Assembly (NCBI GenBank): GCA_018400255.1
Contig: JAGYMO010000283.1
Coordinates: 1 to 32,094, forward strand
Direction: 5' to 3'
DNA from: Deltaproteobacteria bacterium
GTDB lineage: Bacteria > Desulfobacterota > DSM-4660 > Desulfatiglandales > B25-G16
Length of the DNA stretch: 32,094 nt
Part shown: positions 26,337 to 27,450 of the stretch, in pieces
Numbering within the stretch: the stretch's first letter is position 1
Layout: the number at the start of each line of letters is the position of its first letter
Made by a program: the position numbers and the translations under genes
The notes under the pieces: model-generated
What the model was told of the DNA's origin: nothing
The model's database searches: none
Seen by the model: only the letters and a program-made list of their open reading frames with translations

Positions 26337-26504
26337 AATAACATCCTTAGTTAATGAAGGATCCTCAAATAAATAAAACCGCCCGAAACAGATTCCTGAA
26401 TGGTAGGATCAGAAACCCTTTTTTTATGCTTTCATTTTAATGCCAGTGTTCGATGCCAGCGCTAAAAAATACAATCTTATTCGTAACTATTCAGGTTTTT
26501 AGGT

Positions 26505-26922
26505 TGAAGACTGAAGGCTGAAATATTTCAACCAACGCGTAATGATTGAATCAAACCATTAAGAACCTTCTCCGTTTCGATTACCGCAGGTTCAATGAGA
26601 GAAAAATCATCGTTGAGCAAGAAGCCCAAACGTTGAGATAAACTTATTTGATAATGAAGTTCTCTCAATGACCCCAACGCTATGTAAAGAAAACGCAGGT
26701 AATCGGCCTGACTATCCCGTGCGCATCCTTCAATAATGTTAGAAGGGACAGAAATTGCTGCCCGCCTCATTTGAGCAGTCAAACCATACAGCTCTTCCCT
26801 CGGAAACCTTGCGGTCACCCTGTAGGCCAATAATGCCAAATCATCAGCCAACTCAAAAGCGCGGAGTTTTGTGTGATCACGCATGTTTTATTCCTATCAG
26901 GCTTCTACCTTCAGTCTATCTA
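26505..26922. mobile_element. Candidate small element: four-helix-bundle gene framed by inverted heptamer repeats
   Basis: Left arm: three consecutive heptamers TGAAGAC, TGAAGGC, TGAAATA at 26505-26525. Right arm: CTTCTAC, CTTCAGT, CTATCTA at 26902-26922, which read as the inverse. GACTGAAGG (26509-26517) and CCTTCAGTC (26908-26916) are a perfect 9-bp inverted pair. The arms sit 3 nt from the stop and 18 nt from the start of the enclosed gene, so gene and repeats look like one compact unit of about 420 bp. No target duplication was identified, and mobility is inferred. Confidence 0.45.
26528..26884 (-). CDS. Four-helix-bundle protein (23S rRNA intervening-sequence / Avd-like family)
   Basis: 118 aa, compact helical. 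The family core is visible: KLRAFELADDLALLAYRVTARFP in two parts, then LTAQMRRAAISVPSNIIEG, then DYLRFLYIALGSLRELHYQI and a final helix ending near QSLRV. The family was first found as ORFs in 23S rRNA intervening sequences and is structurally related to the Avd accessory protein of diversity-generating retroelements. It is otherwise mostly orphan genes of unknown function. No rRNA or reverse transcriptase is in this window. It is bounded tightly by inverted heptamer repeats (separate entry). Confidence 0.85.
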   Translation of the reverse strand: MRDHTKLRAFELADDLALLAYRVTARFPREELYGLTAQMRRAAISVPSNIIEGCARDSQADYLRFLYIALGSLRELHYQISLSQRLGFLLNDDFSLIEPAVIETEKVLNGLIQSLRVG

Positions 26923-27450
26923 CCTGGATAACAATTCTCATTTTATAATAAAAACGAAGATTTTGCAAGGGACTAAGTTGGCTGCAAGAAATACCAGCAC
27001 CCCCATGAAATCATAACTTCATTGATAAATTAACTTAAGATTTTCATCCGTGACTACTCTGTTCCGTTGCTGCTGGTCTGCTTATTGCTGGTTGTTTGGG
27101 GCTAACCTGTTTGAAAAAGATGGTGCCATTTCACTGGGTTTACGAGTAGTACCAGTTCCATCATAGCTCAAGTTACCTCCGAGGTTTAAAAAGGATTTGC
27201 AGGATTTTTAGGATAGAAGATGACATGGTTTTTTCAAAGCGCCAGGGGACTATCTTTAAGTATCAAATCAGGGTTTAATGAGATATAAATGGGCTTCAGG
27301 TGTACCTGTTTCATCTTTCACTGCATAATCCGGGTTCAATTCATATCTTGTAGAGGCGCATCTGCTATTAGGCGCACTAATCAACCACGCGATTCCCTGC
27401 ATCGGCCAAATAAGCCTGGTGGCGAATAAAAACGCTGCACCCTGAAAAGC
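26923..27450. other. Non-coding gap before hisF, degenerate short repeats
   Basis: No gene is supported on either strand. A 9-bp unit is repeated three times at 27192-27218 (AGGATTTGC, AGGATTTTT, AGGATAGAA). The rest shows no RNA gene, and I could not assign a terminator for the leftward hisF-like gene. Confidence 0.4.

Follow-up and report, generated by a model that had tools for sequence, protein, structure and literature searches.

An S23p four-helix-bundle gene enclosed by inverted heptamer arrays, probably a decayed non-autonomous element with IS66-type ends

Introduction

To our knowledge, no function is known for the abundant orphan genes annotated as “four helix bundle / S23 ribosomal”, and intergenic heptamer repeats spread without a known mechanism. 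Both have been found in the literature apart from each other and apart from the intervening sequences (IVSs) of rRNA; the locus described here joins all three. It lies in a stretch of 32,094 nt, the whole of which is referred to as the window. Coordinates are positions in the window, and G000 is the window's own genome.

The closest described system is the IVS of Coxiella burnetii 23S rRNA, which contains an ORF of the S23p family, terminal inverted repeats, and, ahead of the ORF, the heptamer GACAGAT three times in tandem (PMC4990558). The IVSs of rRNA are excised by RNase III, and 2gsc, a relative of S23p, is a homopentameric ring (PMC4990558). In the literature searched, with subscription journals mostly outside its coverage, this is the only paper that brings together an S23-family protein and heptameric repeats.

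Heptamer repeats have been described separately in several groups of bacteria. Among TAACTGA repeats the direct orientation holds almost without exception, and one inverted case is described (PMC4679880); GGGAATC-type heptamers occur in Xanthomonas and Nostoc, with 70–75 inverted pairs in Xanthomonas (PMC4692102); and Geobacter metallireducens carries hairpin-paired heptanucleotides (PMC2700814). The S23p gene goes unmentioned in the searched text of these three papers. Like the arrays around S23p genes, the intergenic repeats (cyanobacterial STRR, TAACTGA, GGGAATC, and those of Geobacter) consist of tandem 7-nt units, are largely intergenic, and often form inverted pairs.

Three further systems offer partial parallels. 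REP/RAYT (Y1) systems also combine a gene between inverted repeats with scattered gene-less copies. However, S23p is no Y1 enzyme, and heptamer arrays do not accompany the RAYT genes of the genomes compared here; since the flanked gene is S23p, and a search of G000 for Y1 transposase (PF01797) gave no match, the locus does not belong with them. Avd of the diversity-generating retroelements is a related four-helix protein (phrog_3206, E = 9e-7), but the window protein scores 24.8 bits against the Avd model NF033474, where the cut-off is 80, and no reverse transcriptase (PF00078) was found in G000, which sets the locus apart from those retroelements. Lastly, ISDge4, of the ISBst12 group of the IS66 family, has the ends GTGACTACTCAGCA/GTAACTGCTCAGCA and an 8-bp repeat (PMC12898284).

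The S23p gene of the window and its arrays

The gene (26528..26884, minus strand) encodes a four-helix-bundle protein of 118 aa (PF05635, E = 2e-31; TIGR02436; PDB 2gsc, E = 1e-24). Profile scores lie above the curated cut-offs for both PF05635 (108.7 bits vs. 33.8) and TIGR02436 (112.7 vs. 24), placing the protein in the 23S_rRNA_IVP / S23p family. The gene stands in sense between two minus-strand genes, a DUF5752 gene and a HisA-type gene. An Rfam search of the window gave no match, a PADLOC search found nothing, and a search of the phage collection gave no relatives of the protein.

After the stop codon, at 26502..26523 (minus strand), the gene is followed by an array that reads on the gene strand as three clear heptamers, TTCAGCC TTCAGTC TTCAACC. 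Before the start codon, at about 26893..26924 (minus strand), lie three degenerate units, GATAGAC TGAAGGT AGAAGCC, so that tandem 7-nt units of the STRR-like kind are present on both sides; each array was delimited from its sequence and its inverted match to the other. The preliminary description had reported three-fold arrays on both sides, which is accurate for the 3′ array and holds for the 5′ side in number, although the units there are degenerate. It had also reported a perfect 9-bp inverted pair. The 9-mers GACTGAAGG (26509–26517) and CCTTCAGTC (26908–26916) do form such a pair, which in fact extends to 10 bp, with AGACTGAAGG at 26508..26517 on the plus strand and at 26908..26917 on the minus strand. 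The spacings need revision: 23 nt rather than 18 separate the start codon from the 9-mer, and the stop codon lies 10 nt from the 9-mer and 4 nt from the array end, not 3.

When positions in the window are drawn at random and given this geometry, 1.7% show a perfect inverted match of 9 bp or more (P about 0.02), so the pair taken alone is only modestly unusual. Its significance therefore depends on comparison across the family. With a single-locus probability of about 0.017, a chance match or an ordinary terminator could be entertained if only the window were considered, but that explanation is contradicted by family-wide statistics with four types of control, and it is barely credible.

Inverted heptamers across the S23p family

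The S23p family is present in 55 of 61 genomes (G000 and 60 relatives), with up to 24 copies per genome. Flanks were compared for 130 distinct copies, together with 80 closer relatives from many phyla. The inverted match between upstream and downstream flanks has a median of 21 within an element, as against 9 for mismatched flanks, and 82% of elements exceed the 95th percentile of mismatched pairs. The period of the arrays is specific to 7: unit 7 scores 6.4/6.0 vs. 2.4 in shuffles, units of 8 and 9 are slightly raised, and units of 4–6 and 10–12 are at background.

Dereplication at 60–70% protein identity left 57–83 copies, to which an array threshold reached by 5% of random genomic stretches was applied. 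A tandem 7-mer array was found on at least one side in 79–81% of these copies (5% expected) and on both sides in 69–74%, and the same word occupies both arms in 35%, compared with 2% of mismatched pairs. The controls were of four kinds (mismatched pairs, shuffles, random genomic positions, and RAYT genes); RAYT-type transposase genes, the negative control from the same genomes, had an array in 1 of 20 cases. Among plasmid records there were 22 S23p matches, of which 14 were read, 13 of them cyanobacterial. Inverted heptamers enclose 12 of the 14, in many different words (CTAAAAG, CAGGGAA, AAAAGGG, AGTCAGA, AGGGTGT, GGTGACA, and others). The second S23p copy of G000 (L001:161–602, on G000:C221) likewise has a different inverted heptamer, TTAGCNN, with TTAGCCATTAGCGTTTAGCC upstream and GCTAATCGCTAATGGCTAAT downstream.

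The S23p gene and its inverted heptamer arrays are thus one DNA unit across many bacterial phyla, with a word that differs in almost every unit. Heptamers do flank other copies of the gene (about 80% of dereplicated copies have arrays), but they are not of one fixed TGAAGNC type: the word varies from element to element, and what is conserved is the spacing of 7 nt. It is unusual for the length of a repeat unit to be conserved when its sequence is free, and this points towards either a protein or a copying mechanism that measures 7 nt.

Two minor observations concern repeats near S23p genes. Downstream of the second copy in G000 there is a small hairpin, CCCGCTTCAAGCGGGA, in two copies. Some S23p copies (L053, L089, L096) are flanked by arrays with units of 8 or 9 nt (e.g., GCTTCCCA, AAACGAGAC) instead of 7.

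The heptamer word follows the protein for a time. The share of element pairs whose heptamers match (at least 6 of 7 positions) rises with protein identity, from about 3% where identity is below 50% to 41% at 60–70% and 61–71% above 70%. The gene thus carries its word along for some time before another takes its place, and the geometry is kept. Among close relatives, the arms within one element agree better (median 21) than they do with the arms of other elements (12–17), so the two arms change in concert. In the window's subfamily, the S23p protein has a median dN/dS of 0.094, indicating strong purifying selection. Concerted evolution of the arms, with each other and with the protein, would also be expected of an operator or translational control site through which S23p alone is autoregulated in a unit that is not mobile, and inverted tandem sites beside a gene are a common operator design. 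Such a site would not, however, have defined ends with 8-bp duplications, be present in one relative and absent from another, or recur as the same array away from the gene, all of which are documented below; autoregulation as the whole explanation is highly improbable.

Outer ends, target duplications, and IS66

Elements of the window's subfamily have, outside the heptamers, a sharply defined terminal inverted repeat, GTAACTACTCAGGT...ACCTGAGTAGTTAC. The 3′ repeat of the window copy, GTAACTATTCAGGT, with one mismatch to GTAACTACTCAGGT, lies at 26483..26496 (plus strand; the same site as L002:1444–1457). The 5′ repeat, ATTGTTATCCAGGTAG at 26920..26935 (minus strand), is decayed, and was placed by by-eye alignment to GTAACTACTCAGGTAG. 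From outer end to outer end, the element would span 26483..26935 (minus strand), the ends being set by comparison with subfamily copies that bear perfect 8-bp duplications. Next to these ends lie a putative target duplication on the 3′ side (26475..26482, plus strand; GAATAAGA on the gene strand) and its counterpart on the 5′ side (26936..26943, plus strand; AAATGAGA on the gene strand), which agree at 6 of 8 bases, weak evidence when taken alone. With one good end, one decayed end, and a 6/8 duplication, the window copy looks old.

Relatives are better preserved. Close relatives of the window copy have GTAA-type, IS66-like terminal repeats at both ends. Over all loci, 16 of 37 end pairs have target duplications whose length is exactly 8 bp, with no more than one mismatch, compared with 41 of 2000 in the control. 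Such duplications flank gene-bearing copies at different sites, perfectly for L157, L158, and L167 and with one mismatch for L160 and L168, and also gene-less elements of 88–403 bp.

A GTAACTRCTCAG-type terminal repeat and an 8-bp target duplication are what the subfamily has in common with the ISBst12 group of IS66 (ISDge4, PMC12898284) and the MITEs derived from it. Two IS66 elements from the same order, L262 and L263, have GTAACAGTTTAGTC (GTAAC) ends and 8-bp duplications, and the ends of a third, L347 (G134), GTAACTATTCAGC, are nearest to those of the subfamily. The density of the end motif is correlated with that of S23p genes across 61 genomes (rho 0.53). The window element differs from IS66/ISBst12 in having no transposase gene, in the heptamer arrays and S23p gene inside it, and in the last bases of its end (GGT vs. 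GCA). In G000, an assembly of 89.6% completeness, there was no match to an IS66 transposase (PF03050), nor did any of the searches turn up an autonomous element whose ends are exactly those of the subfamily. As judged from the GTAACTACTCAGGT ends and 8-bp duplications, which match IS66/ISBst12, the likely mobiliser of the subfamily is an IS66-type transposase acting in trans. The type of enzyme can thus be named with some likelihood for one S23p subfamily, contrary to the earlier statement that no mobilising enzyme is known. In a generic search of all copies for a terminal repeat with a duplication there was little if any excess beyond the GTAAC class, and most copies with other heptamer words have no recognisable terminal repeat or duplication, so IS66 cannot account for the whole family.

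Other candidate mobilisers were rejected. Two 2-kb pairs of GTAAC ends, L163 and L192, enclose host genes, not transposases. RAYT (Y1) genes are common in the relatives, but their correlation is weak (rho 0.35), their flanks lack heptamers, and none was found in G000. Reverse transcriptase copy numbers per Mb are not clearly correlated with those of S23p (rho 0.21, p = 0.10), and G000 has none. One genome (G055) contains 34 reverse-transcriptase matches, many equal in score, which suggests that a group II intron or some comparable retroelement has multiplied there in a burst.

The ends raise the question of whether the gene matters to the element at all. Gene-less elements with the same ends, the same heptamers, and perfect 8-bp duplications (L169, L251, L252, L166; L246 in G000 also has both ends) are what would be seen if the heptamers were mere sub-terminal parts of IS66-type MITEs, with the S23p gene an inert passenger in some of them. 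However, arrays also flank copies that lack GTAAC ends and occur in the Coxiella rRNA IVS, the S23p gene is under strong purifying selection, and the word goes with the protein subfamily. These data make an inert passenger rather unlikely. A gene-less, MITE-like family (L237, L244, L245, L249, L257, and others) has GTAACTACTCAGGT ends with GTTCANN heptamers. The GTAACTACTCAGGT end motif reaches 82 matches in a single genome (G005), and G005 and G047 are the genomes richest in it.

Gene-less arrays, gain, and loss

The loci examined for arrays total 1.12 Mb, and the density of unit-7 arrays in them is 7.3-fold higher near an S23p gene. A further 134 unit-7 arrays are located away from the gene, about 1 per 8 kb, and arrays with units of 5, 6, or 8 are rare. 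Gene-less arrays outnumber gene-bearing ones, which indicates that the S23p protein is not required in cis for the repeats to spread. In G000, the TGAAGNC double heptamer has 18 matches (reversed control, 0). Nearly all of them stand apart from an intact gene, and the sites that lack one number about a dozen. The orphan S23p family is in this way tied to scattered heptamer repeats, which evidently also spread alone; widespread repeats without the gene, named in the preliminary description as an outcome that would count against a joint unit, were therefore found in part. The relatives of the window element in G000 are an internally deleted copy, L329 (G000:C161), a 3′ remnant, L328, and the gene-less L246. 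In addition, L319 (G000:C102:2122–2189) is a gene-less TGAAGNC heptamer hairpin without GTAAC ends.

Presence and absence were seen between close relatives. An 89-bp inverted heptamer hairpin lies between tRNA genes in L231 and is missing from L230, where the flanks are 98.6–98.8% identical. L224 and L226 carry gene-bearing inserts of 454 and 446 bp, respectively, in a spacer that in L231 has 37–40 unrelated bases in their place. These insertions show no clear duplication, and the short spacer is often replaced, so a second mode of spread, besides the IS66 type, may exist. A clean empty site was not obtained for L167, where syntenic sites lack the element and carry other sequence: a different, internally deleted S23p element in G074 and unrelated DNA in G081. 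The same spacer thus holds two unrelated S23p elements, one of TGAAGGC type (L167:9950–10402) and one of GGTTCAC type, internally deleted (L308, G074:C224), as if it were a preferred target. In Planctomycetota, tRNA clusters (L216, L221, L224, L226, L230, L231) are full of S23p elements and of inverted heptamer hairpins without the gene, and close relatives differ in both.

Because gene-less hairpins are so common in the loci and polymorphic between relatives, pre-existing scattered hairpins could be regarded as a target into which S23p genes insert. Several observations argue against this. The target duplications lie outside both the arrays and the end repeats, which implies that arrays and gene move together; the word is correlated with the protein subfamily; and gene-bearing elements that are almost identical, and share their arrays, stand at unrelated sites (L157, L158, L167). 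Insertion into existing hairpins is accordingly a distinctly unlikely origin for the arrangement. The original suggestion that gene and repeats form one unit is upheld by the enclosure of most family copies, by the subfamily ends with 8-bp duplications, and by presence and absence between relatives.

RNA hairpin and proposed mechanism

The S23p gene is in sense between co-directional neighbours in 51 of 51 cases, a count that takes ORFs called mechanically as the neighbours and includes some loci from a shared site. This orientation fits an element that lives on read-through transcription, with its RNA folding into a hairpin. The folded window transcript is a closed hairpin with the two arrays paired at its base (z = -3.66), and over 192 copies the pairing of upstream with downstream arms is more favourable than that of mismatched arms by a median of 17 kcal/mol.

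The resemblance to an rRNA IVS proposed at the outset agrees with this closed fold (z = -3.7). The Coxiella IVS and the window element share the protein family, an ORF within complementary, stem-forming ends, a size of about 430–450 nt, and tandem heptamers before the ORF. They differ in location, since the IVS lies in 23S rRNA and the window element between protein genes, and in the IS66-type outer ends and 8-bp duplications of the window's subfamily. Being outside rRNA, the window element is no IVS by location; its architecture is that of an IVS.

The explanation that we consider probable is that the locus is a decayed, non-autonomous S23p element with inverted 7-nt arrays and IS66/ISBst12-type ends, mobilised in trans, whose RNA forms a hairpin. 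An element of this kind, without a mobilising enzyme of its own, would sit between co-directional genes and in sense with them. Its subfamily would be moved in trans by an IS66-type transposase, with 8-bp target duplications as the result. Pairing of the two arrays in read-through RNA would give a long hairpin whose loop contains the gene, an anatomy shared with the 23S rRNA IVS. RNase III can probably cut out this hairpin, which would make insertion between genes tolerable, and S23p probably binds the hairpin or its repeats, aiding the persistence or spread of the element.

A broader proposal, possible but doubtful, is that S23p and its arrays constitute a self-contained class of mobile or selfish element. 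The S23p ring would read the 7-nt spacing and, loosely, its own word; the arms would be kept complementary by concerted change, with new words arising and the architecture kept. The rRNA IVSs, cyanobacterial heptamers, and other orphan heptamers would then be members or debris of the class, and IS66 one of several routes of spread.

S23p elements were also seen inside CRISPR operons of cyanobacterial plasmids, in the arrangements cas6-S23p-cas4 (L293, L297) and cas10-S23p-cmr3 (L302), all co-directional.
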